A stretch of DNA of 29,723 nucleotides from a virus: positions 1 through 29,723 of IMG/VR virus record IMGVR_UViG_3300037460_000195; one strand, given 5' to 3'. The notes below the pieces were generated by a model. It had not been told where the DNA came from and searched no databases. It saw nothing but the letters and a program-made list of their open reading frames with translations. Positions 4,200-28,436 of the stretch are shown here, in pieces (the stretch's first letter is position 1; the number at the start of each line of letters is the position of its first letter). Made by a program: the position numbers and the translations under genes.

Positions 4200-4439
4200 C
4201 TATCCTACTAAGTCTTGGGTCAAGAAGAATAAACTTGCCCACTCACGCCAATCATCAAAGTCGTATGGAACTGGAGCGTCTCTCCCAACTTCATCTGGAT
4301 CGCCGACCAAATTCATAGCCCAATCCTGCCATTTTTCCGGGTCTTCCAATTTCTGCACCGAGCCAGTTCCAATCTCGTAGAACTGGTTCATGTTGTCTGT
4401 CCATTCCAGAACTTCCATGTAGTACGGGTTGAGGATCAT
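4200..4439 (-). CDS. Small conserved-looking structural-region protein (79 aa)
   Basis: A small acidic, tryptophan-rich protein. Its ATG overlaps the stop of the nozzle gene (ATGA), indicating translational coupling. The C-terminal segment FDDWREWASLFFLTQDLVG is its most distinctive part. Similar short proteins with a DWREWA-type ending accompany nozzle or ejection genes in other podovirus-like genomes, as far as I recall, but no function is known to me. It has no cysteine pair, signal peptide or transmembrane segment. Because it is coupled to the nozzle and precedes the ejection protein by 4 bases, it is probably a minor virion or assembly component. Confidence 0.7.
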   Translation of the reverse strand: MILNPYYMEVLEWTDNMNQFYEIGTGSVQKLEDPEKWQDWAMNLVGDPDEVGRDAPVPYDFDDWREWASLFFLTQDLVG

Positions 4440-8311: not shown

Positions 8312-8956
8312 CTACGCCTCCCTTCTCGTTGAAGACCTATCTATGATCTTCTGTATGTCTTCGCCGTTGAGTAGTTGCAGATCACGGTCATACGTAGTCT
8401 GCCACGTTGGAATTCGTTTGTCGTTCACCAAGAATCTTGTCGCCTGGAGCAGCGCCGCGTGAAGCAGTGCGTTCGGCGCATACGTCGATGACCAGTTCGT
8501 TTGATTCGTATCGTCCAGAAGTGCCGGAAGTTCATAGTACAGAAGCTCGAACGGATAATCAAAGTCCGGCGTCGGACTGAACAGGTAGTTGAAATAATTG
8601 TAGTCCGCGTAGAACCTCGGCTCTCTCCTCAAGTCTTCATCGGGCCAGTACATTCGACAGTACTCGTAAGAACGTGGGAACAGAGGGGTTCTCACCTGCT
8701 CCGTTCCCACGCCAAAGTTGATGCTCACTGTATCTCTCCAGCGATCTGGCTTCTGGTAAACAGACGTTCCAGCGGCCATCGTACTGGTGACAACATTTAT
8801 GAACCCTTGAATCTTGAGCGCGCGAGCAAGGTCTCGTTCCGCAAGGTTGATCAGGCGGGGGAGTTGATCGAACACTGTCGGATCGACTGATGTCCCTCGC
8901 TCCAGGTAATCGCGAAGATCATCTTGCAGGGAATCAAATGTCATTGCAGTAGGCAT
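8312..8956 (-). CDS. Head-tail adaptor, SU10 adaptor-like
   Basis: A 214-residue helical protein with start ATG 8956 after an AAGGAG site 8 bases upstream. Diagnostic segments are LPRLINLAERDLARALKIQG (about 31-50), a KPDRWRDTVSINFG strand, WPDEDLRREPRFYADYNYFN, an FELLYYELPALLDDTNQTNW stretch and a C-terminal helix ending IDRSSTRREA. These match my memory of a portal-associated adaptor family in podoviruses related to phage SU10. Such proteins form the ring joining the portal to the nozzle. It sits two genes before the nozzle. A second adaptor-like protein (15119-16195) occurs upstream, so the neck may contain two adaptor layers. Confidence 0.85.
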   Translation of the reverse strand: MPTAMTFDSLQDDLRDYLERGTSVDPTVFDQLPRLINLAERDLARALKIQGFINVVTSTMAAGTSVYQKPDRWRDTVSINFGVGTEQVRTPLFPRSYEYCRMYWPDEDLRREPRFYADYNYFNYLFSPTPDFDYPFELLYYELPALLDDTNQTNWSSTYAPNALLHAALLQATRFLVNDKRIPTWQTTYDRDLQLLNGEDIQKIIDRSSTRREA

Positions 8957-8968
8957 CGGTCTTGCTCC

Positions 8969-9364
8969 TTACTGAGTCGGGTCAGGCTCAGGAGTGGGTT
9001 CCCCTTCGGGAGCGAACTCAGGTTCCGGTTCTGGCTCAGGTTCTGGCTCAGGTTCTGGCTCAGGTTCCTCAGCCGCTTTCGCCGCCGCTTGGATTGCATC
9101 GTGAGCCGCATCACTGCGATCTCTCAATGTTTGCCACTCAGTCGGCGTCGGCGCTCTACTTTCCTTAGCCATAGCCGCGACCACATTCGCGAACTCCTTC
9201 AGTTCTTCATTCGCTTCGTCGCCGCGCTCCAGCAACTCCCCGAGCAGAGACAGAAACTCGGACGTTTCCTGTAGCTTCAGGCTGGATCCACCTCCGAGAG
9301 CCGGGTTGTTGGTCAGCAAAGATAGCCCGCGAACCGAGACAAGGATTAGTTGAAGTATACTCAT
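8969..9364 (-). CDS. Protein with C-terminal Glu-Pro repeat tail (131 aa)
   Basis: The N-terminus is a short hydrophobic stretch (MSILQLILVSVRGLSLL), weak as a membrane anchor. A helical acidic middle (30-99) follows. Residues 100-116 are an uninterrupted Glu-Pro alternation, then a Pro/Glu-rich end. Such EP repeats are rigid extended spacers, best known from TonB, where they cross the periplasm. The start ATG overlaps the stop of the lipoprotein gene (ATGA), linking it to the candidate lysis cassette, and the adaptor gene follows after 12 bases. It might be a periplasm-spanning lysis accessory or a virion spacer. I do not recognise the family. Confidence 0.7.
   Translation of the reverse strand: MSILQLILVSVRGLSLLTNNPALGGGSSLKLQETSEFLSLLGELLERGDEANEELKEFANVVAAMAKESRAPTPTEWQTLRDRSDAAHDAIQAAAKAAEEPEPEPEPEPEPEPEPEFAPEGEPTPEPDPTQ
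9021..9074. repeat. Tandem 12-bp repeat encoding the Glu-Pro tail
   Basis: On the plus strand the unit ggttctggctca recurs head to tail: three perfect copies at 9027-9062, with degenerate units on either side (ggttccggttct, ggttcctca). Read on the minus strand each unit encodes Glu-Pro-Glu-Pro. Perfect short tandem units can slip in replication, so the length may vary between related phages. Confidence 0.85.
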
Positions 9365-9786
9365 GTTTCTGCTCCTCGTACTGCGGTTATTAGGTTAGCG
9401 ATTAGAGGCATCACTCGATCGACCCATCCGTTTAGCTCATTCATGGTTCTCACGAACTTCTCCTCACCTGTTCCGCTGGCTTCGTACTCCACTCTGATCA
9501 CTGTAAATTCCAGAGCCGCATCCAGCATAGAGTCTGCCACTGGCTTCACTTGAGCATCCGCGCGTCCTATTGCACGAACGGCACTGTTCGGGATCTGACC
9601 ACTGGAAACGAGCTTCGCAGCTTGCTCCTCAATAATCACGAACGTGCCATACGCCGCGAACGCTCTTTGCTCAATCGTTTCTGCCTTCGCCATCGCATCT
9701 GTCACTGCGCACGATTGCAGCAACAACATGATCGCGAGTAAGTAGAACGCCTGAACTTGACGCGTTATTACGAACACTTGATTCAT
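9361..9786 (-). CDS. Predicted lipoprotein; candidate outer-membrane spanin-like protein
   Basis: A 141-residue protein. Residues 11-25 are a hydrophobic signal (VQAFYLLAIMLLLQS) ending in a lipobox L23-Q24-S25-C26, so Cys26 would be lipidated after signal peptidase II cleavage. The mature part is helical and moderately charged (30-135). It is coupled by ATGA overlaps to the holin-like gene upstream and the Glu-Pro protein downstream. A small phage lipoprotein beside a holin suggests the outer-membrane half of a two-component spanin, acting in the last step of lysis in Gram-negative hosts. It is longer than typical Rz1 proteins and not proline rich, so that assignment is tentative. Confidence 0.7.
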   Translation of the reverse strand: MNQVFVITRQVQAFYLLAIMLLLQSCAVTDAMAKAETIEQRAFAAYGTFVIIEEQAAKLVSSGQIPNSAVRAIGRADAQVKPVADSMLDAALEFTVIRVEYEASGTGEEKFVRTMNELNGWVDRVMPLIANLITAVRGAET

Positions 9787-10016
9787 CCTACTGTACCTCC
9801 TCCATCGCCCGAACCTGTGACTTTGTTTACCAGACGTCGGGCTGATATCGCCTGGAAGTCTTTACCGAACGTGATTGCACCACCGATAAGCAAGATGGTC
9901 CACTGAAGACCGGTGACGTCACTCAAAGAAGTGACTCCCGGTCCACTCAACAGTACCAGTGCCGCCGTCGCCAGAGCGATGACGGTCGCAATGAATGCTC
10001 CAATGATTGTGTTCAT
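9783..10016 (-). CDS. Two-TM holin-like protein (77 aa)
   Basis: A small membrane protein with two hydrophobic segments, about residues 4-24 and 37-52, a basic stretch (54-65) and a Gly-rich, soluble C-terminal end. Length, two membrane spans and a charged tail fit class II or III phage holins, which permeabilise the inner membrane at lysis. It is coupled (ATGA) to the DUF5675-like gene upstream and to the lipoprotein gene downstream. Holins share little sequence, so the call rests on topology and neighbours. Another small phage membrane protein is possible. Confidence 0.7.
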   Translation of the reverse strand: MNTIIGAFIATVIALATAALVLLSGPGVTSLSDVTGLQWTILLIGGAITFGKDFQAISARRLVNKVTGSGDGGGTVG

Positions 10017-10471
10017 TTCATCTCCTCATCTTCGTCGTATATCTCGATCCACACTTCCTCACTGAGTAATGCCTCAGCGATAGTTTCGTACAATCGTCTG
10101 TACGCTGAAACTGAACTGGTCACCTGACCTCGTTCAGTCACGTTTTGAACTTGACCATCACCAACGAGGATGCACCCCTCCGAATCGTCATCCTTATTGC
10201 CGACATGAAGATAGATAAACCGAAATCCCGGTACATCCTGAAGCCATAGCATTCCGTTGTGCCAACTAAATCGCTTCTTGTACCGTGTGACCATGCCGCC
10301 GTCGTTCCGAAAGATGATCTGATACCGTCCCGATGGGATGCGAGTCTCTCCCGGGATCTTCGGCTCGTTGTGCTGGTCCTCCAAAGAATAGCAGAAGAAT
10401 TTCTCATCGGCAAAGATTAGCCCGAGAGTAGCCTCGTCGCCACCAGAAAATCGTTTCAGTTGAAGTTCCAT
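10013..10471 (-). CDS. DUF5675-like protein with YkuD-type H...S-x-G-C motif; candidate cell-wall enzyme
   Basis: A 152-residue protein matching the pattern of the DUF5675 family: FFCYSLED (25-32), GETRIPSGRY (41-50), MLWLQDVPGF (74-83), then YLHVGNKDDDSEGCILVGD (87-105). His89, Ser97 and Cys100 recall the H...SxGC arrangement of YkuD-type L,D-transpeptidases, whose catalytic residue is the Cys. The family is frequent beside phage holins. Here it is coupled to the holin-like gene (ATGA) and follows a one-TM protein (TGATG). No other muralytic enzyme is visible in the window, so it may be the peptidoglycan-acting member of the cassette. The enzymatic activity is inference. Confidence 0.75.
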   Translation of the reverse strand: MELQLKRFSGGDEATLGLIFADEKFFCYSLEDQHNEPKIPGETRIPSGRYQIIFRNDGGMVTRYKKRFSWHNGMLWLQDVPGFRFIYLHVGNKDDDSEGCILVGDGQVQNVTERGQVTSSVSAYRRLYETIAEALLSEEVWIEIYDEDEEMK

Positions 10472-10839
10472 CAGCTTATGTTGTTATTCGCTTGAAGAGC
10501 AGCCTTCGCTTCTTCAAGCGCATCCATTTGAATTTCTAGATCTGCCAGATACGATGCATCCTCAGCAGTCCAGTCATCATTCGGAGGGTTATCTCGACGG
10601 AACTTCAACGCCGCGATCTCCTTCCTCGTGGCGTTGATGTCCCGCTGAAGCAAGGCGACGAAAGCATTGTTGATCGGTTCAGTCTGCTCCGCCACTATAT
10701 CCTTGATGTCCTCAGCCATCGCATTGAGGAGGAGTGGTTGCAGAATAAACCAGAAGACGGGGATGAGAGTAACATAGGTCACAATCTGATTGATTCCTAT
10801 ACGAATCCCGCGTTCTTTCACTTCGGCCTTGCTTGCCAT
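10471..10839 (-). CDS. One-TM coiled-coil protein; candidate inner-membrane spanin-like protein
   Basis: Start ATG 10839 is preferred because it follows a GGAG site and overlaps nothing. An upstream in-frame start at 10869 would run into the previous gene, which ends at 10841. The 122-residue product has a short basic N-terminus, one membrane span at about 17-40 (VTYVTLIPVFWFILQPLLLN) and a long charged helix-rich C-terminus (60-118), the layout of an inner-membrane spanin (Rz type). It is separated from the lipoprotein by the DUF5675-like and holin-like genes, whereas classical spanin pairs are adjacent or overlapping. It could also be a holin regulator. Confidence 0.7.
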   Translation of the reverse strand: MASKAEVKERGIRIGINQIVTYVTLIPVFWFILQPLLLNAMAEDIKDIVAEQTEPINNAFVALLQRDINATRKEIAALKFRRDNPPNDDWTAEDASYLADLEIQMDALEEAKAALQANNNIS

Positions 10840-10840
10840 T

Positions 10841-11116
10841 TTACTTCTCCGCTTGTTTTCCCGTCTCAACGGGTTTCAGATCAGACTTCTTCTTACCGTC
10901 GCCGTCACCCTCTGGCGTTATCACCGGCGGCACGTTCATCAGGATAACCTCGCCGTTTGCAATTGCCGTGAGCATGGAGTTCAAAATCGCCATCACCCCG
11001 CTGATCGCCATCGGACTCGGCACGGTGACCGCTCCCTGAGTATTGAGTAACTGAACTCCTGCTATCGCAGCTTGCTTCATCTGTTCTTGTGTGATGTCTA
11101 CTTTTCTCTGTTCCAT
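10841..11116 (-). CDS. Hypothetical protein (91 aa)
   Basis: Start ATG 11116 follows an AGAGGAAG site. The N-terminal part is helical (MEQRKVDITQEQMKQAAIAG...). A mildly hydrophobic centre (38-60, ISGVMAILNSMLTAIANGEV) does not look like a clear membrane span. The C-terminus is hydrophilic and Lys/Asp/Gly rich (68-91). The gene sits between a fibre-associated gene and the candidate lysis cassette, and its stop lies 1 base before the next start. I do not recognise a family and assign no function. Confidence 0.65.
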   Translation of the reverse strand: MEQRKVDITQEQMKQAAIAGVQLLNTQGAVTVPSPMAISGVMAILNSMLTAIANGEVILMNVPPVITPEGDGDGKKKSDLKPVETGKQAEK

Positions 11117-11516: not shown

Positions 11517-12221
11517 CTATACCCTCCTTCTAAAACTGAGTCCGCCATCTTCTATATACTCTGGGACAGGCGCGCCGTCTTCGCCTCCATAAGCAATTTG
11601 CAATGGTCCTGCATCAATGGGATTCTTCGCAGTCACAAGAATGCCGGATTCCCTGTCATTCAAAAGTGGTCGGAGTAAAAGTCCCTCAACAATTCCGTCG
11701 TGACCTTGCGAAGTGTAGATAGTCAGCCACTCCTCCGCTGATAAAATCCTGTCGTAATATCGCACATCTGCTGTATCAACATCTTGTGTGTTGCCACCAT
11801 CGCTAGTGCCGCCGATTCCAAAGTTTTCACCATCATCAAATATTGTACCGGGATCATTTAATGTTGCTTCTAATACTCCGTTCAGCCAGATGTGCAGATC
11901 GGTGCCATCAAAATCTATGCCTGCATGAAACCACGTGTCAAGCGAAAGAAGTCCTGCGGTCGCTACCAACGTGGTGTTCGCAGCGCCATCAAAAGATATC
12001 GAAGAACGTAGCGTAAGCGCTCCTACGGTGTCAGGCTTTAAGAACCATGACTTGCTGGATGGATTGTCCCATACAGTAATGATTGTACGATTTTGTGGAT
12101 TACTGTCACCAGAATAAAGATTCGCCCACACCATCGTTGAGAACGGATCTTGCGTAAAAATATTCGCTGGATCAACAAACTGAAAGGTTGATCCGTCATT
12201 GTCATTAGTACGAACAGCCAT
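11517..12221 (-). CDS. LamG / concanavalin A-like lectin domain protein
   Basis: A 234-residue protein with the hallmarks of the LamG_3-type jelly roll: LDTWFHAGIDFDGTDLHIWL (about 93-112), then NGVLEATLND, and the closing ADVRYYDRILSAEEWLTIYT segment (about 151-170). Such domains bind glycans. In phages they occur in virion decoration or receptor-binding proteins. The ATG overlaps the stop of the 844-residue fibre (TGATG), so the two are co-translated and probably work together, for example as a detachable fibre tip or an additional surface lectin. The C-terminus (LQIAYGGEDGAPVPEYIEDG, then GLSFRRRV) is short and basic. Confidence 0.82.
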   Translation of the reverse strand: MAVRTNDNDGSTFQFVDPANIFTQDPFSTMVWANLYSGDSNPQNRTIITVWDNPSSKSWFLKPDTVGALTLRSSISFDGAANTTLVATAGLLSLDTWFHAGIDFDGTDLHIWLNGVLEATLNDPGTIFDDGENFGIGGTSDGGNTQDVDTADVRYYDRILSAEEWLTIYTSQGHDGIVEGLLLRPLLNDRESGILVTAKNPIDAGPLQIAYGGEDGAPVPEYIEDGGLSFRRRV

Positions 12222-14755
12222 CAGGTGAAACTCACTTTACATAGGAGCAAGTCCCAGTCGCCTGTCAAATCCGTTCCTCCGGTCGGAGCCACGCGGACCA
12301 GTTCAAACTGAGTGGTCTCTCCTGCCGTTACTCCGAGAGTCGCGAGCGCCACTGTCTGCGTATCCTCTTGGAAGAATTCGTTGGTCGGTATGTCAAGGTC
12401 CGTCAGTTGCGTCGCTGAACTCCACGCTTGGACTGCCGCGTTGTCCGGGATGCCTCGGTTGTATATGTCCAGACCAACGGTGTTCGCTATTCCGGGCGCA
12501 GTCTCCGCTCGCGCCACGAAGTCGAAGACGATGTTCGTCGCGCCTGCCGGAACTTCGATGGTGAAGCCGACTCCCTCCTCTGTCGTATCATCGAATAGTC
12601 TTACCGTCAGTCCTGCGTTGTTGCTGTCCGCTGATGCAGGCGCGAGTGCATTGACCGTCCAATCTGCATTGTTAGGATTCTCCAACTGATCCGCGAAGAA
12701 CTGAAACTCAGGGAAGGCAAGGAAGGATAGATTAGCATCGAAGAAAGTGAGCAACTGCGTGAACGTAGCTTCAGACAGAACACCTCCATCATTGGTGATG
12801 ATCGTATCTGCAGCGGCAATCGCTCCGCTGGCTGGCTGAGCCGTGATAGCCGTGACATCAAGCGCCAATGCAGTCGCGCCAGTGACCTGACCTGTATGAG
12901 TGGCGTTCGTGACTTTGGCAGTATTGGCCGGAACATCCGTTGCGATGTCGATACCGTCAACCGTGCCAGTGAGCGTGATGTTTCCAGTTACGTCGAGAGC
13001 CGCACCATCGTACGTGAGTCCGGTGGTTCCTTCAATGGTGCCGTCTCCAGTCCATACTCCAACTTGATTATCGACCGGAGTACCGACCTTAGATACATCG
13101 CCAGTTATTTCTGATAGGAACGCCAGAGTTTCCGCATCCTGTTTGATCCGACCAGTGAGCCCGGTGAAGTTGATGTCAACCGTCTGGAAAGCTGTGAAAT
13201 TATAATCTGTATTGTCGTGAGACTGTTCTACGTAGTCTGTGCCTCCGCCGCCAATGACTCGAACAGGAATACCTTCAAACTCCCAACGAACAACATCGCC
13301 GCTGACATTGAACGCTCCAATCGGAACATTACCACTGAATACCCACTGTCCCGTTTGGATAGCAATGGAAAAGTTATTTATCCCCGACTGTGAAATACTG
13401 AGAGTAGGAGTGGTCGTAAGCTGACCATCTAGTGTCACACTGCCATCTTGGAATGAGAACAAAGGAGCGTCGCTGAAGATGGTAGCAGTACTATTGAACC
13501 CGAAGGTCTGAGTGCTCTTGTCGTATGTGAAGCTGGGATCACCTTCAATCGTACCGTCGCCTGTCCACACGCCGACCTGATTGTCAACCGGAGTACCGAC
13601 CTTGAATACGTCACCAGCCGCTCCACCATTCAATACAAAATCACTTCCTGCATCGTCGGTGTACATCAGAACGTTCGGTACATCATCGCGTACCCAAACC
13701 TGACCGCGAGCAGCGACGCTCGACAGTGCCGCCGCTCTCTCATCGTAGAACGAAGACACATTGAATATGAACTCTGAGTCATCGGTCATCCGAAAGAGTG
13801 GAACCCCTGTTTGATTTCCGGGGTTCCAGAACCCCCAATCATGAACGATTGGACTGGAGTTCATAGCTGATCGACTATAGAACCCCGAAGGAGTACCTCC
13901 GTTCCTATCGGTAGACCAAACTGGTCCAACCGACGCTCCGATGTTGACGTGGATGAAAGCCTTGCGAACGTCAGTCGTAGAAGAACCTCCGCCGGAGATT
14001 CTACCGAGAGGAGATGTGGGTGGAGTCGCTGGATTGATCAGAATAGACGAGGAAATTACCGGCTCGTACTGATTGTTGCCGATATCCCAAATTGTTACCT
14101 GACCGTCAACGGTTCCAGCGACGACGTTAGCTCCAGTCGCTGCGCCAGTGAGATTGATGACGAGAATCACGCGAGTGTTTTGAGAGAGCGCTGATCCCTG
14201 CTGAATTAGGTTGGCGATACCAATCGTTGCAAAAGTTCCGCTATCAGTATTGGTTCCAACCTCTACGACAATGAAGTTGGCAGAGTCTGACTTCTCCTGT
14301 ATATAGATAAGCGAACCGGCAGTCAACAGACCAAGGAACGCTCCCACATCTACACTGCCATCATTGGTCTCAGCAATATATAGCTCAGTCGCTAGTGTTG
14401 GATCAGCATTGTCAAATCTTATCTGCCCGTTGGCAGGAGGAGTCCCCGTTTCCGTGCGGTATCTCCACTCACCTAATCCCGAGAGACCTCCGCTCGTTGC
14501 TGAAACTACAATCGAGTTGCCAGCACCATTGTCTACGATGGAGATACCATTTCCCTCAGTCAGTATCCGTTCGTTCGGAAGCGCCGCGTTCGCAGTAACA
14601 GTAACGAACGTCGCATCCAATCCAGCGGCAGACGCGGCGATGTCAGCTACCGTTGCTCGAGTACTATCCCCAGACGCATCTTCTAGCTCCAACTGCTCAT
14701 CCCCGACGAGAGGAAGAGTATTAGGAGGTAGCTCAGAAATCTTTATGCCTGCCAT
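12221..14755 (-). CDS. Large tail fibre protein (844 aa)
   Basis: The N-terminus (MAGIKISELPPNTLPLVGDE, then QLELEDASGDSTRATVADIA) is the common phage-fibre anchor pattern, xISxLPxxxxxxxxDxxxL...KxTVxxI. A beta-rich shaft follows, with two copies of the GDVxKVGTPVDNQVGVWTGDG module that also occurs twice in the 854-residue fibre. The last 150 residues look like a beta-sandwich tip (LENPNNADWTVNALAPASAD and FTIEVPAGATNIVFDFVARA segments). No catalytic motif or S74 chaperone domain is visible. Its stop overlaps the LamG gene start. Likely a receptor-binding fibre or a side-tail fibre. Confidence 0.85.
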   Translation of the reverse strand: MAGIKISELPPNTLPLVGDEQLELEDASGDSTRATVADIAASAAGLDATFVTVTANAALPNERILTEGNGISIVDNGAGNSIVVSATSGGLSGLGEWRYRTETGTPPANGQIRFDNADPTLATELYIAETNDGSVDVGAFLGLLTAGSLIYIQEKSDSANFIVVEVGTNTDSGTFATIGIANLIQQGSALSQNTRVILVINLTGAATGANVVAGTVDGQVTIWDIGNNQYEPVISSSILINPATPPTSPLGRISGGGSSTTDVRKAFIHVNIGASVGPVWSTDRNGGTPSGFYSRSAMNSSPIVHDWGFWNPGNQTGVPLFRMTDDSEFIFNVSSFYDERAAALSSVAARGQVWVRDDVPNVLMYTDDAGSDFVLNGGAAGDVFKVGTPVDNQVGVWTGDGTIEGDPSFTYDKSTQTFGFNSTATIFSDAPLFSFQDGSVTLDGQLTTTPTLSISQSGINNFSIAIQTGQWVFSGNVPIGAFNVSGDVVRWEFEGIPVRVIGGGGTDYVEQSHDNTDYNFTAFQTVDINFTGLTGRIKQDAETLAFLSEITGDVSKVGTPVDNQVGVWTGDGTIEGTTGLTYDGAALDVTGNITLTGTVDGIDIATDVPANTAKVTNATHTGQVTGATALALDVTAITAQPASGAIAAADTIITNDGGVLSEATFTQLLTFFDANLSFLAFPEFQFFADQLENPNNADWTVNALAPASADSNNAGLTVRLFDDTTEEGVGFTIEVPAGATNIVFDFVARAETAPGIANTVGLDIYNRGIPDNAAVQAWSSATQLTDLDIPTNEFFQEDTQTVALATLGVTAGETTQFELVRVAPTGGTDLTGDWDLLLCKVSFT
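13029..13102 (-). repeat. Copy of shared 74-bp fibre module (844-aa fibre, C-proximal copy)
   Basis: Encodes a GDVSKVGTPVDNQVGVWTGD-type segment, ending in GTIEGT. One of four equal-length (74 bp) copies in the window, two in each of two fibre genes. Confidence 0.85.
13542..13615 (-). repeat. Copy of shared 74-bp fibre module (844-aa fibre, N-proximal copy)
   Basis: Encodes GDVFKVGTPVDNQVGVWTGD and then GTIEGD. The peptide is nearly identical to the 13029 copy, while many third codon positions differ. Confidence 0.85.
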
Positions 14756-16545: not shown

Positions 16546-19110
16546 TTACGCCGTGATTAATCCCAGTGCGACCAGAGCCGCGTGAATCGCTGCGGCGGAT
16601 ACTGCAACGCCGGTCTGTAGTGAAATTGGAGCAGTCGTGTAGAAACCTATTTGACGTGCGCTCCCTGTCTCTCTTATGTTTATACAATCAAGACCACCAG
16701 CAACGAGTGACAAGTGGTCAGTCGCTGTCCAGCCTATCCCTGTATCGAGATCGGTCTGAGTTGGAAGTAATGTTGGATTTGATGCAGATGCCACTTCATT
16801 CTGTATCGAAGGACTGCCGCCTACTGCTCCACGCATCTGATTACCTACGAACCGAAATCTACCTATGCCGTCAACTGATACCGCAAGAATGCCGGGAACA
16901 GCAGAATAGAATCCAGTATCCGGGTCAACTACGAATGAAAGAGAAGGGTCCGCAGCAGTGCCAGCCGGACCAATGAGAACTTGGTCGGTCGTACTTTCTG
17001 ATAAACGTAGCATCTCAACGCCACCAGCGATGAGTGAAAGCGTATCAGCACCGAGAGAACCTATACCTGTATCAAGATCGCCACGATCTGGAACCAGTGT
17101 TGGATTCGTACCCGATGCCGATTCATTCAACATGCCTGCGCCGTCAGACAACTGCGATACGAAGAGGTCACCGCTCCAAGCGAACTTCGATGCACCTGCA
17201 CTGAGTACGAAAATATCAGTGCCTGACTGACGGAATCCACTTCCACCAGTTCCGAAAGATAATGTCGCTGCGCCAGTTCCCGCGTTAGTGGGGTCAACGA
17301 TTAGAGTTGGATGTCCAGTGACCTCAGTAAGACGTGCAACCTCAACTGCTCCAGAGATGAGTGAAAGCGTATCGAGACCGAGAGAACCTATTCCTGTGTC
17401 TTCATCACCTCGGCGTGGAACCAGTGTCGGATTTGTTCCAGAGGCAGCCTCATCAACTATGATAGGGCCAGCAACAGTCGACGCTTCTAAATCTCCCGTG
17501 AATATGTGTACTGTACTGGTAACACGAAGTTTTTCGACTCCACCAACGATCAGCGAGATGTCACCAGTAACGCCACCGATTCCTGTAGACACGCCGCCCA
17601 GAGCCGGAATCAATGTTGGATTAGTATGAGTTGACGCTTCGTTCTGTAGGCTAGGACCGTTTCCTGCGACGGCAACAAAGCGATCTGCGGTGAAGGTCCA
17701 TCGGTCCACTCCGGCAAGTGTTACTTTGAGCGCGTCATCGCTTAACTCACGGAAGCCACTGTCTCCATCACCGAATGCGAGCGACGGAAGAGCGGCACTA
17801 CCGAGTATCGCTCCCGGAGATATAATAAACTGATCTACCGCATCTTCTACCGCTCGTGCGATCTCTACACCACCAGCGACGAGTGAAAGCTGATCTGCTG
17901 CGCTCCAGCCAATGCCAGTATCAATGTCTGCTCTAGCAGGGCATAGAGTTGGATTGGTCGTTGACGGAACCTCGTTGATTAGGATTGGACCTTCACCAAG
18001 TCCTGCACCTACTCCAAGTGACTGGAATGATGCGTCATCAAAACGCCAGTACTCAACGCCACCTTCTACCCATCCGGTGTGCGTTGCCGCATCCTGATAA
18101 AAGCCAGTCCCTACTTCTCCTATCGCCACCGATGGAGTGGCTAAAACTCCGGCTCCAACTCTGGCACGCCCAGATGATAAGTTGAGAACCGTGCCATCCC
18201 ACGTTAAACCCGTATCGCCCTCAATCGTACCGTCGCCAGTCCATACACCGAGTTGATTGTTAACAGGAGTGCCGACCTTCGTTACGTCTCCTCCTCCGCC
18301 TCCTCCGGCTGCGAAGATCAACTGAGTCCAAATTGAATCAACAGTTGTTCCGATGAATGCCACTGACGCTCCCGCCGCGAGCGAGATAGCAGTATCAACT
18401 CCGGCACCAAGATCGTCACCCGATCCGGGGAATACGTCGCAAGCATTCGCACCATTGTTCTTGATGTAAACGACGGAACCTTGTAAGAAAGCTAGACCTG
18501 TGGGAAGTTTTACTGAATCCCCCAGAGTCGCAACAGTTGCTACGACATTGTATCCGCGATCCAATACTATTGCGCTACCTTGTCCTCCGCCTGCAAAGGC
18601 AGTCAAGCCAACTCCAGTATCCCACGCCGGAATGACTCCGATACTATTGCTTTCGGCGAGAACCAGTCCCGCTTTACCACCTGAGATTAATGAGAGTCTG
18701 TCGCCAGACTTCCAACCGATACCTGTATTCGCATCGGCAACTGCCGGACAGATAGATGGATTTGTTTCGGTTACCGTCGTGTCCCTGAGCATCGGTGCTT
18801 GACCGGAGCCAGTCTGTAATTTTAGATCTCCGGTAAATCTCGACTCCGAACTGGCAACGACGTTGAGAACACCACCATTGAAGGTAAGGTCATTAGTCCC
18901 TTCGATTGTGCCGTCACCTGTCCATACACCTACTTGACCATCCGCTGGGGTGCCGACCTTGCTTACATCTCCTCCGGATGGAATCAGAGTGAGGAGTTGT
19001 GTGACCGTTAATTTTTTGTCTCGCGTGTCGCCACTCTGACGCACACCGAACAGATCTGTGAGCGCAGGAACTGTGACAGCAACGAGATTGGGAATAGTTG
19101 AATTAGCCAT
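16546..19110 (-). CDS. Large repeat-containing tail fibre protein (854 aa)
   Basis: The N-terminus (NSTIPNLVAVTVPALTDLFG, then VRQSGDTRDKKLTVTQLLTL) is a fibre-anchor type segment. It is followed by the GDVSKVGTPADGQVGVWTGD module at 47-66, and a second copy after a Gly-rich hinge. The shaft is built from about six copies of a unit with core NPTLxPxxxDxDTGIG....DxLSLIxGGVE. These are interleaved with a second unit of core PSLxFGxxDSGFxx...L.V...G..RW.F. The C-terminus, GFYTTAPISLQTG then AAIHAALVALGLI, matches a widespread phage fibre terminal motif. GAG-GAC precedes ATG 19110. It is probably a trimeric receptor-binding fibre whose length can change by gain or loss of units. Confidence 0.86.
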   Translation of the reverse strand: MANSTIPNLVAVTVPALTDLFGVRQSGDTRDKKLTVTQLLTLIPSGGDVSKVGTPADGQVGVWTGDGTIEGTNDLTFNGGVLNVVASSESRFTGDLKLQTGSGQAPMLRDTTVTETNPSICPAVADANTGIGWKSGDRLSLISGGKAGLVLAESNSIGVIPAWDTGVGLTAFAGGGQGSAIVLDRGYNVVATVATLGDSVKLPTGLAFLQGSVVYIKNNGANACDVFPGSGDDLGAGVDTAISLAAGASVAFIGTTVDSIWTQLIFAAGGGGGGDVTKVGTPVNNQLGVWTGDGTIEGDTGLTWDGTVLNLSSGRARVGAGVLATPSVAIGEVGTGFYQDAATHTGWVEGGVEYWRFDDASFQSLGVGAGLGEGPILINEVPSTTNPTLCPARADIDTGIGWSAADQLSLVAGGVEIARAVEDAVDQFIISPGAILGSAALPSLAFGDGDSGFRELSDDALKVTLAGVDRWTFTADRFVAVAGNGPSLQNEASTHTNPTLIPALGGVSTGIGGVTGDISLIVGGVEKLRVTSTVHIFTGDLEASTVAGPIIVDEAASGTNPTLVPRRGDEDTGIGSLGLDTLSLISGAVEVARLTEVTGHPTLIVDPTNAGTGAATLSFGTGGSGFRQSGTDIFVLSAGASKFAWSGDLFVSQLSDGAGMLNESASGTNPTLVPDRGDLDTGIGSLGADTLSLIAGGVEMLRLSESTTDQVLIGPAGTAADPSLSFVVDPDTGFYSAVPGILAVSVDGIGRFRFVGNQMRGAVGGSPSIQNEVASASNPTLLPTQTDLDTGIGWTATDHLSLVAGGLDCINIRETGSARQIGFYTTAPISLQTGVAVSAAAIHAALVALGLITA
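16690..18790 (-). repeat. Diverged intragenic repeats of the 854-aa fibre shaft
   Basis: About six copies of the NPTLxPxxxDxDTGIG unit, roughly at 18.7, 17.9, 17.6, 17.4, 17.1 and 16.75 kb. The copies near 17030-17110 and 17358-17440 are the closest at the DNA level: both contain gatgagtgaaagcgtatc, followed by nearly the same 20 bases. Others differ strongly at third positions. Copy boundaries are approximate. Confidence 0.75.
18218..18291 (-). repeat. Copy of shared 74-bp fibre module (854-aa fibre, second copy)
   Basis: Encodes GDVTKVGTPVNNQLGVWTGD and GTIEGD. It is preceded in the protein by a poly-Gly hinge and followed by TGLTWDG. It resembles the copies in the 844-residue fibre gene about 5 kb away. 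Confidence 0.85.
18899..18972 (-). repeat. Copy of shared 74-bp fibre module (854-aa fibre, first copy)
   Basis: Encodes GDVSKVGTPADGQVGVWTGD and GTIEGT close to the N-terminus, directly after the anchor segment. The position suggests a collar between anchor and shaft. Confidence 0.85.
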
Positions 19111-23968: not shown

Positions 23969-24430
23969 CTACTTCAGATAGGCGATTACTTCTAACGGAT
24001 CGCCTGTGATTTCTCCCGACAAATCCAGATCGTTGAACAGAACGAACAACGCTGAGTCTGACGAGTTGGGAACTGAAACCTCCCACCGATCTCCGCCGTA
24101 CTTTGGACATCGCACGAAGGCTCCAGGTTGGACCCACTTCCCCTCAGGCCACACTTCAAGGGTATCTCGGTTGCAAAAAGCGACAGGTCCAAGCGCGATG
24201 ACTTTGGAAACTTGAGTATTCCACTGCTCAGTTTCTCGGGACTCATCTGGAATGATGATTCCCTCTTTCGTCTGCAACATCGGAGTCCTAATCTGCACCA
24301 GAACTTTGGACCCGAATGGTGAGAGACCGGGATCAACCTCTGGGAAGGCTTGATCAAGGGTGTCGTACGCTAAAGTCACACGACTCTCCGCTCCGGCGTC
24401 AGCCAGTTTCAAACTATTTTGATTTGTCAT
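23969..24430 (-). CDS. Phage GroES-like co-chaperonin
   Basis: A 153-residue protein with a Cpn10-type core at about 37-151: PFGSKVLVQIRTP (38-50) matches the first GroES strand; QTKEGIIIPDESRETEQWNT (53-72) corresponds to the mobile loop, with the hydrophobic triplet Ile58-Ile60 as the GroEL-binding IVL; VSKVIALGP (74-82) and VQPGAFVRCPKYGGDRWEV (100-118) match the later core strands; the C-terminal LEVIAYLK fits the final 'ILAIVE'. It has a 35-residue N-terminal extension and a short insertion relative to about 97-residue GroES. Phage co-chaperonins (T4 gp31 is the known case) replace host GroES to fold capsid protein. Its place next to the scaffold and capsid genes fits exactly. Confidence 0.88.
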   Translation of the reverse strand: MTNQNSLKLADAGAESRVTLAYDTLDQAFPEVDPGLSPFGSKVLVQIRTPMLQTKEGIIIPDESRETEQWNTQVSKVIALGPVAFCNRDTLEVWPEGKWVQPGAFVRCPKYGGDRWEVSVPNSSDSALFVLFNDLDLSGEITGDPLEVIAYLK

Positions 24431-24608
24431 CTGCTACTTCCTCTATCGCTTGCGTTAGCAACTGCTCGGCGAGTAACAGACCCTGATACGTCCCACACGC
24501 TTCACCATAACCGAAGTCCGTCTTGTCCTTTGGTCTTCGCAGTGCCGCGTCGGCGTACTCTGTCTGCATGCCCTTGAGCTTCCTAAGGTAAACTTCTAAC
24601 TCGTGCAT
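24414..24608 (-). CDS. Small helical protein upstream of the co-chaperonin (64 aa)
   Basis: Start ATG 24608 follows an AAGGTG site. The product is helical: MHELEVYLRKLKGMQTEYAD, then a GYGEACGTYQGLLLAEQLLT segment (33-52) and an acidic end. Small proteins with a G-x-x-G-x-x-x-G-L-L-L-A-E-x-L-L pattern occur near portal and head genes of many phages, but I know no function. It overlaps the co-chaperonin start by 17 bases. It could be a portal- or terminase-related accessory protein. Confidence 0.7.
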   Translation of the reverse strand: MHELEVYLRKLKGMQTEYADAALRRPKDKTDFGYGEACGTYQGLLLAEQLLTQAIEEVADDKSK

Positions 24609-24878: not shown

Positions 24879-27443
24879 CTATGGATTTATACCCGTTCCG
24901 GTCTGCAGATTAGTCTTGTTCCCAGCTTCCAATTCCGCTGCTACAATCTGTAACGCCGTCAAGTTGTCCTGAGTATTTCTGCGTTCGTCAGATGCCAGCT
25001 TGGTAGCGATGCGTTCGTCTTCGGCGCGCTCGGTAAGCATGAGCTCTTCGAGCCGAGCAGCTCTTTTCTGAGCTCGTTCTGCCTCTTCCATTGCCGCCTC
25101 GACTGCCTGCTCTCGCTCGTCCGCGGAAAGTTTTGCAAACTCGATTTCGGTCTTGCTCTGCATTTCCAGACGCTTCGTTTCGTCCTTCTTCGCATCGTCC
25201 GCTCTTCGCCGTTCGATCTCCGCCATCTGGTTCGGATCGACTGGCAACTGCGGAGTCTCCGGCTTGAACTGCTGGAGTGCCTGCATGGTCTGCTGAATGA
25301 TCTCCGGCATCTGCTTAAATACCTCGGCAGAGCGCTCCATGACCATACTCGATCCCGCCGCAAGTGTCTTGGACAGTTCCTTGCGAGTCGCCGGATCTTG
25401 TTCCTCCATTATCTGGCGCATTCCTTCGTCGTCGCTCTCCGATGCTTCCATCATCAACTCATAGTTGCTGTTGATGTACCAGAGAACCATGTGTTCCTTG
25501 ATGTGTTCCAAGACCGCTGGCATGAATATTGGAGCAATGACCGGACTCTGTCCAAACTCCACGCTCATCAGATAATCCACGTGGACCTGGAGATGGGCAA
25601 GATGCTCCTGATCGGGGAACGCAGCGACCGGTCTTCCCAGGCTCATCGCCGCGTTCTCGTTGACAGCGTTCTGATCCTGCGGTAGGTCCTCTGGAATTAG
25701 GAGCTCGTCCGGGTTCGGTATCTTCGTACGCTCCAGAAGACGCTTCTCTACGACGCGACGATTGTACAGGTCCGGCAGTGCATCCGCTCTGTCGGCCACG
25801 ATCTGTAGCTGCGCGAGTCGTTGCACGTCGCTGAATACTTGCGGGTCCGCAGTCGGTACGACATCCATCGGTCCCTGGAAATCATCGCGATACGCCAGCA
25901 ACTCGCCGAGCTCGTCAAGCATCTCCTTGTCGGTGATGTACATCTTGTTGATGCGGTACAGAATCTCTATGACCATTGTCATGGAGTGGTACGAGCGGAG
26001 GTGGATGGCAGACATCACCTGCATCCCCTCCTCTATCATTGCGAGCGTAGTGCCGACCGGCATGTTCGGGTTCTGATCCTTCAGTTGCTCGAACGTGGTG
26101 CGGACGACTCCCCTTCCGGCATCAACGCAGAACCCCAGAAGCTGGAACAGAACAGGACTCGGCGGATTGAACGGCAGAGGCATGAGCAGCTTCCGGATGT
26201 CGTCTCCGGCAATGCCGCCATCGATCTCCGCTATCTCCGTCGCCTGAATCTCGGTCTTGGTCTGTCCCATGAAGTTCGCACCCTTCAGCCTGATGGCCGT
26301 CGGTATGTTGTTCACATGAGCAGAGTCCAAAAGAGCGCGGAGCGCACCAGTCGCGGCTCCCGCAAGGCTACCAATCATTTGACCGAGCCCGATTGAATAC
26401 GCTCCACGCCAAGGAATGAACCCGAACTCTACCATCCACTGCATCCGCTCCTGGTACTCATCCTCCTCTTCCCAGTTGCGCACGACTGCGACAATCTTGT
26501 TAGATGGTTCGTCCAGACTAATGAGGTACGGGACAGCGCCGGCGAGATCCTCCTCTTCCTCAAAGTTTATGCTACAACTGATCTCGTGAACGACGCGCAG
26601 ACCGTCCTCGTTATAGAAGTCATAGTCTTCCTTCCCCTCCACCTTGTCCGTGGCTTTCTGCGCGTCAGTTGCCTCGGGCATCTGCGCGTTGACCAGCGGA
26701 GTGATGTCGCGGTACATGCCATCCTTGACGCGATCCTCAAACTCCATCTTGGTGACCGGCTCGTGGTACGTCTGTCGCTGCGCGGTATAGAAGTTGCTCG
26801 CACTGTATGGGATAGACACTTGATCCTGCGGAATGTACTGCGGAACAGGACGCGTCTTCCTCTTAGACCAGTCTGGCGTCAACCGAATATACTGCGACCC
26901 GGACAGAGCCAGTTGCGGAAGAAGTTGTTCTAACTCTGGACGGAACCCTTTCATCTGCTTCAGGAACTGCCAGTTCATGTACGACTTAACTCGGTCCGCC
27001 TTCTGCAGACGCTCCGGAGTTATGTTCTCACCTGGGATGTACGATCGGACTGGACCGTCCGGCGGCATCAGTTCCTTGATTGCACGAGCGGAGTAGTCCA
27101 CACTCGACTCGGTCAGCATCGGATGCACGACGCGAGACGCTCCGGTGAACTCCGCTCCACCCGGAGCCTCGTGTCCGAGTCCAGTTCGCTTTATTGCCTC
27201 GGCATACTCTTTGTCACGCTTCTTCCTGGCCTCCTTGTCTCGCTTGATGGCTTCCTGCAACGTCGTCGCGAGCTTGGTCAGCTCTTCGTCGCTGATCTTG
27301 TCAACCATGTTGTCGTAGAATTCGTAGGTCTTCGCGGTAGTGTCTTCGTCTCCCACCTTGACGATTGCCCCGCCGTCATCCGTGTCCACCACGTCGGGCT
27401 GAGGCGGTTCAAACTGCATCACTTGTGACTCAGGTGTAGCCAT
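24879..27443 (-). CDS. Portal protein (P22-like, large)
   Basis: An 854-residue protein, longer than P22 gp1 (about 725 aa). GGAGGT precedes ATG 27443. The N-terminal third holds a helix of Lys/Glu (AIKRDKEARKKRDKEYAEAI), then PGGAEFTGASRVVHPMLTES and the conserved SVDYSARAIKELMPPDGPVR segment. The middle carries the clip and stem parts, with NNIPTAIRLKGANFMGQTKT and a long helical crown (RSYHSMTMVIEILYRINKMY...). The C-terminal 150 residues are a charged coiled coil (about 700-820), like the barrel of P22-type portals. The start overlaps the ART-like gene by 14 bases. The product forms the DNA entry ring. Confidence 0.9.
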   Translation of the reverse strand: MATPESQVMQFEPPQPDVVDTDDGGAIVKVGDEDTTAKTYEFYDNMVDKISDEELTKLATTLQEAIKRDKEARKKRDKEYAEAIKRTGLGHEAPGGAEFTGASRVVHPMLTESSVDYSARAIKELMPPDGPVRSYIPGENITPERLQKADRVKSYMNWQFLKQMKGFRPELEQLLPQLALSGSQYIRLTPDWSKRKTRPVPQYIPQDQVSIPYSASNFYTAQRQTYHEPVTKMEFEDRVKDGMYRDITPLVNAQMPEATDAQKATDKVEGKEDYDFYNEDGLRVVHEISCSINFEEEEDLAGAVPYLISLDEPSNKIVAVVRNWEEEDEYQERMQWMVEFGFIPWRGAYSIGLGQMIGSLAGAATGALRALLDSAHVNNIPTAIRLKGANFMGQTKTEIQATEIAEIDGGIAGDDIRKLLMPLPFNPPSPVLFQLLGFCVDAGRGVVRTTFEQLKDQNPNMPVGTTLAMIEEGMQVMSAIHLRSYHSMTMVIEILYRINKMYITDKEMLDELGELLAYRDDFQGPMDVVPTADPQVFSDVQRLAQLQIVADRADALPDLYNRRVVEKRLLERTKIPNPDELLIPEDLPQDQNAVNENAAMSLGRPVAAFPDQEHLAHLQVHVDYLMSVEFGQSPVIAPIFMPAVLEHIKEHMVLWYINSNYELMMEASESDDEGMRQIMEEQDPATRKELSKTLAAGSSMVMERSAEVFKQMPEIIQQTMQALQQFKPETPQLPVDPNQMAEIERRRADDAKKDETKRLEMQSKTEIEFAKLSADEREQAVEAAMEEAERAQKRAARLEELMLTERAEDERIATKLASDERRNTQDNLTALQIVAAELEAGNKTNLQTGTGINP

Positions 27444-28095
27444 TTACGAGACCTCCGGTTTGGAATGGTGGTTCATACTTCTTTACCTTCTGTTTTATTC
27501 TGTAATCAGCCAGACTCGATGGAGCACCGAGCACCTCCACGAGCTCTCTCAGTTCTTCCACTGTAGTCATCTTACCCTGCGGAAGGACGAGCTCAGCCTC
27601 ATCACTGAACGGCATGTGTTCACCCGTCACATCCTTCCACGCCGGTTCGTCAAACATTATTCCCGGTGAACCTCTCGGTACTTGGATCTCACCTATGAGT
27701 GCAGGATCCTTCGCCGGATGCGGATCCATCCATCCCTCCGCGTATGTGTAGGCACTCCCAGGTTCGTACGTCGTCGTGAACGGGTATCCGTGCTTCGGTT
27801 CAAACTGCCCCTCGGTAGACCCTCGCCACACGGTCAGATCCTCTGGTGCTCGCGGCGCTCTGCGCATTATCTCTTCCAACCGAGCAGCCAAGTCCTCTGA
27901 TCCATACTGCTCACCCTTATACCCGAGGTCCATCGCATGGTACGGTCCCGCGAGATGTCCACTGAGCGTCTCAATGTCTTTCGATGGTAGATCACGAATG
28001 AACGCGGCGTGTCTCTTCTTCAGTGCAGCGAGCGCTCGCTTGTTCGCGGCACTCGACTGCATGAACTTCTTAGTGATAAGAGCAGCTTGACCCAT
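27430..28095 (-). CDS. Predicted ADP-ribosyltransferase (R-S-E / E-x-E type)
   Basis: A 221-residue protein with three ART-fold motifs in order: Arg91 in LTVWRGS (88-93); an STS-like FTTTY (106-110) followed by an aromatic helix (SAYTYAEGW); and Glu166-x-Glu168 in FSDEAELVLPQGKMTTVEEL (163-182), the classical ExE catalytic loop before the final strand. These enzymes transfer ADP-ribose from NAD to protein or nucleic acid. The C-terminus, KKYEPPFQTGGLVNGYT, has the Gly-Gly-x-Val motif also seen in the candidate ejection proteins. Start 28095 is chosen because it gives a TGATG overlap with the upstream gene; an ATG at 28173 would overlap it by 79 bases. Target unknown; T4 Alt is a precedent for virion-borne phage ARTs. 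Confidence 0.75.
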   Translation of the reverse strand: MGQAALITKKFMQSSAANKRALAALKKRHAAFIRDLPSKDIETLSGHLAGPYHAMDLGYKGEQYGSEDLAARLEEIMRRAPRAPEDLTVWRGSTEGQFEPKHGYPFTTTYEPGSAYTYAEGWMDPHPAKDPALIGEIQVPRGSPGIMFDEPAWKDVTGEHMPFSDEAELVLPQGKMTTVEELRELVEVLGAPSSLADYRIKQKVKKYEPPFQTGGLVNGYT

Positions 28096-28436
28096 CAGTT
28101 GCTCTTCCTTCTTGACGAGGCTACTTCGTCGGCCGCTCTTACGACCGTACCCTCCAACACGCAAGCCGGACATCCGTTGTGCATAGACAGAGCAGGACCA
28201 CCGAAGATGCTCAGCACTCCGACGAACAGAGTGTGCATCACCTCCGTGTACGCGTCCATGTCACCGGCAATAATCAAGTCGCGTCGTTCATCGTCCGTCA
28301 GTTCGCAGTCGGCGCCGAACCCACGCTCTATCATCAGCGCACGAACGACCGACTGATGCGGATCGCAGAACTCGACCTGCTGTACATTCGACTGGTCCTC
28401 TCCGCAGTCCGGACACACTACAATCTCAGCCGTCAT
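28095..28436 (-). CDS. Small protein with two Cys pairs, terminase-adjacent (113 aa)
   Basis: Start ATG 28436 follows a GGAGG site and overlaps the terminase stop by 11 bases. CPDC at 8-11 and CPAC at 89-92 could form one zinc site; Cys24 and Cys44 are additional. The centre is helical (HQSVVRALMIERGFGADCEL, RRDLIIAGDMDAYTEVMHTL). I do not recognise a family. Next to the terminase and before the portal, it may be a packaging accessory. No small terminase is seen in this window, but there is no helix-turn-helix either, so it should not be called one. Confidence 0.68.
   Translation of the reverse strand: MTAEIVVCPDCGEDQSNVQQVEFCDPHQSVVRALMIERGFGADCELTDDERRDLIIAGDMDAYTEVMHTLFVGVLSIFGGPALSMHNGCPACVLEGTVVRAADEVASSRRKSN

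Follow-up and report, generated by a model that had tools for sequence, protein, structure and literature searches.

Predicted phage lysis cassette in which a DUF5675 protein of L,D-transpeptidase fold is the probable endolysin

A group of five small consecutive genes was investigated in a 29,723-base IMG/VR virus fragment (IMGVR_UViG_3300037460_000195; 29.7 kb, hereafter the window), which is not a complete genome. The minus strand of the window is a phage structural region encoding a terminase large subunit, a GroES-like co-chaperonin, a major head protein, fiber-like genes, and an SU10-type adaptor, together with an 854-amino acid protein at 24879-27443 that matched no family and is taken to be the portal by analogy with similar phages. 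An earlier note had described a protein with one transmembrane (TM) segment, a DUF5675/YkuD-like protein, a two-TM holin-like protein, a lipoprotein, and an EP-tailed protein at 8969-10839, and had read them as a candidate lysis cassette nested among tail genes, linked by overlapping starts and stops and free of any classical lysozyme, amidase, or transglycosylase. The five minus-strand open reading frames (ORFs) are present at this place (Table 1). Their computed coupling is operon-like: the one-TM and DUF5675 genes are joined by 1 base (TGATG), and the DUF5675/two-TM, two-TM/lipoprotein, and lipoprotein/EP joins comprise 4 bases each (ATGA). The scanned ORFs of the window yielded no lysozyme, amidase, or transglycosylase; three very small ones (4200-4439, 24414-24608, and 28095-28436) were compared with PHROGs only. 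The structural setting was also as described, although the neighbors are fiber-like and adaptor genes and not tail genes alone.

Table 1. Positions of the candidate cassette genes and their immediate neighbors in the window
Feature	Length (aa)	Position	Strand	Assignment and remarks	Basis
Upstream protein	91	10841..11116	-	1-base gap before the cassette; kept in some relatives	no family matched
One-TM protein	122	10471..10839	-	TTG start at 10869 also possible	ORF, hydropathy, conservation
DUF5675 enzyme	152	10013..10471	-	predicted endolysin; fold of the L,D-transpeptidase (YkuD) type	Pfam, AlphaFold2 model, slot exchange
Two-TM protein	77	9783..10016	-	class II holin-like; basic C-terminal tail	hydropathy
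Lipoprotein	141	9361..9786	-	candidate o-spanin; lipobox LQSC, C26	
EP-tailed protein	131	8969..9364	-	hydrophobic N terminus without lipobox	EP repeat evident in sequence
SU10-type adaptor		8312..8956	-	downstream structural neighbor; tree anchor	PF24175 E 1.1e-25; phrog_2941

Relatives of the DUF5675, lipoprotein, one-TM, and two-TM proteins were gathered from a viral collection, and all of their ORFs were compared. The order one-TM protein, enzyme, two-TM protein, lipoprotein, EP-tailed protein, and adaptor was conserved across 31 distinct related viral contigs, several of which are near copies of one another. All five genes flanking the enzyme were present in 30 of them, the 31st starting within the cassette, and therefore the gene order is not due to chance. 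The EP-tailed protein occupied the same position in every contig. The enzyme slot held DUF5675 in 19 contigs (nine close to the window protein and 10 of a divergent type, Pfam E 1.4e-13), phrog_3108 in eight, and phrog_465 in four, so that one of the latter two families fills the slot in 12 of the 31 relatives. This exchange is the behavior of interchangeable endolysins. When the four slot types were mapped onto a quickly built adaptor tree, 10 changes were required, or six when DUF5675 was set against the rest; the lipoprotein tree gave nine and five changes, respectively, and both trees include near copies. Because the two trees disagree, the region is mosaic.

The alternative occupants of the slot differ in how well they are annotated. 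Only phrog_465 carries the label endolysin in PHROGs, and the slot protein matched this family with an E value of 6.5e-28; it is perhaps an M15-type peptidase, the match to PF13539 having an E value of 0.078. No function is given for phrog_3108 in PHROGs, and a sequence search against solved structures returned nothing credible for it. A search for its homologs matched 159 records; among the 30 phage rows that were listed, three are annotated as endolysin or lytic murein transglycosylase. One homolog so annotated sits in a transglycosylase-holin-Rz set of a phage record, and another, annotated as hypothetical, directly follows a holin gene. An AlphaFold model of phrog_3108 was poor (predicted local distance difference test (pLDDT) 57.5, six sequences), and the Foldseek list obtained with it was meaningless and was not used; the lysozyme-like nature suggested for this family therefore comes from annotation and neighbors only. 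Thirty-five selected records were also compared. Most of the loci behind them had been located by means of DUF5675 itself, and the following count is therefore not a frequency: DUF5675 occurred once each in 31, and the other four carried phrog_3108 (three records) or phrog_465 (one record). None of the DUF5675 records among the 35 had a full-length match to phrog_3108 or phrog_465. Two records, G026 and G027, showed weak partial phrog_3108 matches (50 and 43 positions), which were not taken to indicate a second endolysin.

The neighborhood of DUF5675 in more distant viruses was examined in 17 loci, selected from 43 by a flank of at least 2.5 kb and <80% identity to any kept locus. Among their 149 ORFs, seven matched the holin family phrog_3427 and two an Rz-like family. 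Within the 35 records, phrog_3427 was found in nine, all with DUF5675, at a distance of 18 to 1693 bases (<250 bases in seven of the nine); these nine include near relatives and hence are not fully independent. The linkage, within 1.7 kb in nine of nine phrog_3427 records, holds at the level of the family, whereas the holin of the window itself is one that we infer. A second type of holin gene, GTA_holin_3TM (PF11351), comes after DUF5675 in loci L013 and L019. In three further loci (L026, L030, and L033), the genes after DUF5675 encode first a small TM protein, then another TM protein, and then an Rz-like protein whose gene overlaps that of an Rz1-like lipoprotein; the PHROG spanin matches of this pair in L026 were weak. 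In the record of Bacteroides phage PhiCrAssBcn1, the DUF5675 homolog lies two genes from a "lysis regulatory protein/holin."

The window protein belongs to DUF5675 (PF18925), scoring 95.7 bits against a curated cut-off of 26.7 (E 2e-27). Sequence searches against solved structures with DUF5675 yielded nothing credible. An AlphaFold2 model based on 38 sequences reached a pLDDT of 88.5 and a predicted template modeling score (pTM) of 0.85. When this model was submitted to VIA-align, all 50 rows shown were YkuD-fold enzymes, with Z values from 8.5 to 5.7 (Pgp2 8.5, DpaA 8.0, YkuD 8.0, Csd6 7.8, Mycobacterium L,D-transpeptidases ∼7.5, Tlde1a 6.8). The uniformity of this list is stronger evidence than the Z values themselves. 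R7, T15, P46, G48, Y50, P81, H89, N92, G99, C100, and G104 were invariant in all 38 sequences, and H89 and C100 form a putative catalytic pair. The published motif of the YkuD family is HG(S/T)-X10-(S/T)XGC-phi-R (PMC12729407), and the window protein retains its (S/T)XGC-phi portion (S97, G99, and C100) in addition to H89. The YkuD family PF03734 itself gave no row for the window protein at an E value of 1, and the homolog L050 scored 14.4 bits against a cut-off of 23.4. The designation YkuD-like thus stands for the fold (AlphaFold2 and VIA-align) and falls for the PF03734 score and the full motif; the DUF5675 protein is predicted to work like the YkuD family, yet it is not a member proper by motif and Pfam score.

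A second endolysin was searched for in the nearest long relative, a contig of 63,806 bases whose portal-position protein, DUF5675 protein, and lipoprotein are 80, 72, and 68% identical to those of the window. We scanned 76 of 80 selected ORFs (at least 60 amino acids; overlapping ORFs were dropped, the one-TM gene among them). Eighteen Pfam families were found at E 1e-4, of which DUF5675 was the sole plausibly wall-active one, and no second endolysin was seen among the 76 ORFs of this contig, the completeness of which is unproven. Single families were searched for as well: Phage_lysozyme (PF00959) was found neither in 20 records nor in six named ones, Amidase_2 (PF01510) and SLT (PF01464) were not found in 35 records, and Peptidase_M15_4 (PF13539) was not found in 40 records.

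The membrane proteins of the cassette were analyzed by topology and conservation. The one-TM protein has a single TM segment at residues 19-37, located near the N terminus in 14 of 14 homologs, and the ∼85 residues that follow are predicted to be periplasmic. It therefore has the topology of an i-spanin (N-terminal TM segment, then a periplasmic domain), its sidedness being a prediction. It matched no Pfam family and PHROG entries only below threshold; we regard it as a candidate i-spanin or holin-associated protein. A comparison of its profile with the TM protein that precedes Rz/Rz1 in L026, L030, and L033 gave a probability of 0.3%, and an argument against the i-spanin assignment that had been built on their identity was dropped. 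In the two-TM protein, hydropathy gave a strong segment at residues 4-22 and a weaker one at 34-50 (15 homolog rows); by size and hydropathy alone the protein would fit a class II holin. The lipobox cysteine of the lipoprotein, C26, was conserved in 18 of 18 homologs, and no Asp is found at position +2, in agreement with the outer-membrane sorting of an o-spanin. The lipoprotein matched no bacterial genome, and tblastn searches of named phages with the one-TM, two-TM, and lipoprotein genes returned nothing.

These topologies would allow an addition to the lysis assignment rather than an alternative to it, in which the one-TM protein is the i-spanin and the lipoprotein the o-spanin, with the enzyme and the holin encoded between them. 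Both proteins are retained in 30 of the 31 contigs. Their genes lie ∼0.7 kb apart in the window, a separation that is not unusual in itself, as spanin genes ∼700 bases and up to ∼1 kb apart have been published (PMC6139136). On the other side, neither protein matched a spanin family, and the homologs of the lipoprotein are not proline-rich (1.4-4.4% Pro). Moreover, the two halves do not always travel together: in seven scanned contigs of the other group of one-TM homologs, the one-TM gene adjoins DUF5675 without a comparable lipoprotein, one short ORF in L016 being spurious. We consider a separated spanin pair possible but somewhat doubtful.

Overall, the five genes probably constitute a lysis cassette, with a hydrolase of L,D-transpeptidase fold as its endolysin. 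The wall enzyme of this kind that the earlier note had proposed within a lysis set is supported by the slot exchange, by the linkage to holin and Rz/Rz1-like genes in other viruses, and by the lack of a second endolysin in the scanned ORFs of the 63.8-kb relative; for its spanin halves the doubt expressed above applies. We infer the following course of events. The cassette would serve a virulent-looking tailed phage infecting a diderm bacterium. The two-TM protein would act as the holin and give the DUF5675 enzyme, which lacks a signal peptide and is cytoplasmic, access to the periplasm. In that compartment, the thiolate of C100 together with H89 would attack the L-center of meso-diaminopimelic acid (mDAP) in the stem peptides, and the enzyme would hydrolyze mDAP-D-Ala bonds and perhaps 3-3 bonds too. 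Hydrolysis by thiol attack is plausible because both L,D-carboxypeptidases and L,D-endopeptidases occur among the YkuD-family enzymes, as stated in a review (PMC12729407). The enzyme would thus cut cross-links rather than form them, a transpeptidase-type fold in the role of a lysozyme, and the surrounding membrane and lipoprotein genes would complete the disruption of the inner and outer membranes, possibly as a separated spanin pair. With chances that we put a little short of even, DUF5675 (phrog_1501) is a distinct class of endolysin, namely a YkuD-fold cysteine L,D-endopeptidase with a shortened motif that cuts cross-links, occurs in tailed phages including crAss-like phages and in microviruses, and is freely exchanged with lysozyme- and peptidase-type endolysins at one slot.

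A number of results weigh against the lysis assignment. Peptidoglycan degradation by the DUF5675 protein and a requirement for it in lysis are computational predictions, and the two-TM protein matched no holin family in Pfam or PHROG. Neither the window nor its relatives are established as complete genomes, some being fragments, and they may have an unrecognized endolysin elsewhere. Foldseek searches of the PDB with the model gave nothing at E 0.001 (best E 0.035; Tlde1a ranked second with E 0.039 and a probability of 0.85), and Z values near 8 are merely middling by VIA-align's own note. The YkuD motif is incomplete, with HVG in place of HG(S/T), a shortened His-Cys spacing of 11, and no Arg following GC-phi. 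A plain L,D-carboxypeptidase would trim the stems and leave the cross-links, possibly without lysis. In an alternative reading, a Tlde1/DpaA-like L,D-carboxypeptidase or amidase edits the wall, trimming stems or freeing an outer-membrane lipoprotein, while the bulk cutting is done by an unrecognized enzyme or by host autolysins. The closest sequence relation of the window protein beyond DUF5675 is a Pfam match to Tlde1_dom (E 0.0042, below cut-off), the structural rows include DpaA, Csd6, Pgp2, and Tlde1a, and the Arg missing from all 24 aligned DUF5675 sequences, which is conserved in transpeptidases, is also absent from the YkuD-fold hydrolase DpaA according to a review (PMC12729407). Against this reading, the enzyme is replaced by an endolysin family at the same slot in some relatives, and no second wall hydrolase was found among the scanned ORFs of the 63.8-kb relative. 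We judge this reading unlikely.

The occurrence of DUF5675 outside lysis regions also counts on the negative side. The family is widespread in bacterial genomes, mainly in Bacteroidota, with multiple copies in some genomes; 80 bacterial loci were kept out of 143. Its gene is next to that of the portal, and outside a lysis cassette, in the phages Kuja and Cygsa01, and two other Ackermannviridae have no gene at all at the post-portal place of Kuja. The slot enzyme could accordingly be a virion-borne wall hydrolase for entry, packaged and opening the wall locally for DNA ejection, which would account for the structural-gene setting. The fiber-like genes and the SU10 adaptor that flank the cassette, like the portal and prohead genes beside DUF5675 in Kuja and Cygsa01, would agree with an entry function. 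Within the cassette, however, the enzyme is surrounded by a lipoprotein gene and the genes of two membrane proteins, DUF5675 adjoins holin and Rz/Rz1-like genes in other viruses, and its slot partner phrog_3108 is found in a holin/Rz set. An entry enzyme appears unlikely on this evidence, and we retain lysis as the probable function of the cassette.

Some further observations were made on DUF5675 loci. The post-portal place in Kuja was considered as an endolysin slot; with no wall enzyme there in two other Ackermannviridae and one Tevenvirinae, this idea received no support. In Vibrio phage Kuja (NC_048827 126740-127204; L280 and L197), the only annotated endolysin-type gene is a tail lysozyme. 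A DUF5675-like gene is also present in two microviruses (L192, 4839-5252; L193, 3650-4042), whose annotations comprise six or seven genes; it is possibly an endolysin that replaces the usual microvirus lysis strategy. Reading of neighboring ORF translations by eye, which covered 19 loci, revealed GroEL-like and GroES-like genes ∼1 kb upstream of DUF5675 in the virus contigs L136 and L138, with three small genes between.

Other genes of the window were also noted. Adjoining the cassette, a protein at 11517-12221 contains a laminin-G-like (concanavalin-type lectin) domain (Pfam E 1.1e-10) and is likely a glycan-binding appendage. A repeated sequence similar to KVGTPVDNQVGVWTGDGTIEG occurs in both of the long fiber-like proteins at 12221-14755 and 16546-19110. 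The GroES-like co-chaperonin is encoded at 23969-24430 (Cpn10 E 2.4e-05; phrog_3188), between the portal-position and head genes, and is present in the 63.8-kb relative too. Directly upstream of the portal-position gene, the ORF at 27430-28173 gave a weak match to an ADP-ribosyltransferase exoenzyme (E 0.0022, below cut-off), and its product is perhaps a virion-packaged ADP-ribosyltransferase. The 63.8-kb relative (L182-L185) encodes 5-hydroxymethyl-dU DNA kinase domains, a thymidylate synthase, and a family A DNA polymerase, which suggests hypermodified thymine in this phage group.

If the lysis assignment is true, a widespread family without assigned function, found also in crAss-like phages and microviruses, gains a testable one, and the endolysin repertoire gains an L,D-specific enzyme; a transpeptidase fold that builds the wall would have been adapted to lysis, in exchange with other endolysins. 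The idea is already known as an annotation in records of crAss-like and Thiohalocapsa phages. PhiCrAssBcn1 (OQ221536) and other crAss-like phages encode a homolog, with 32.3% identity to the window protein (tblastn), that is named "L,D-carboxypeptidase/transpeptidase"; the neighbor genes in that lysis region are named differently from those of the window, and the function of the enzyme there is annotation only. In the accessible text on crAss001, lytic functions are ascribed to three genes, and the enzyme is left unnamed (PMC6235969). The closest named phage homolog, at 48.6% identity, is TPMD03_43 of Thiohalocapsa phage LS06-2018-MD03, annotated as "peptidoglycan hydrolase"; an Rz-like spanin is annotated two genes upstream of it, but its other neighbors differ from the window cassette. 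In the parts of the DUF5675 literature available to us, nothing concerned lysis and no naming of DUF5675 as an endolysin was found. The available text of one lytic-protein resource mentions neither DUF5675 nor transpeptidase (PMC12596118), and the accessible part of another, PhaLP, lists 10 YkuD-type cases and likewise contains no reference to DUF5675.

Among characterized enzymes, Tlde1a, an L,D-transpeptidase effector of the Salmonella type VI secretion system, served as a fold reference only. Its residues H121, S128, and C131 (PMC9638812) compare with H89, S97, and C100 of the window protein; S128 corresponds to S97, and the His-Cys spacing is 10 in Tlde1a versus 11 in the window. Tlde1a is a secreted effector with an immunity protein, and the second motif His that it possesses is missing in the window protein. 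Pgp2, Csd6, and DpaA, the YkuD-fold enzymes in the top VIA-align rows, have hydrolase rather than transferase roles, but they are chromosomal enzymes of cell shape or lipoprotein release and show no significant sequence match to the window protein. The phrog_465 endolysins and phrog_3108 enzymes, finally, share a gene slot with DUF5675 in close relatives, although the sequence families are unrelated.

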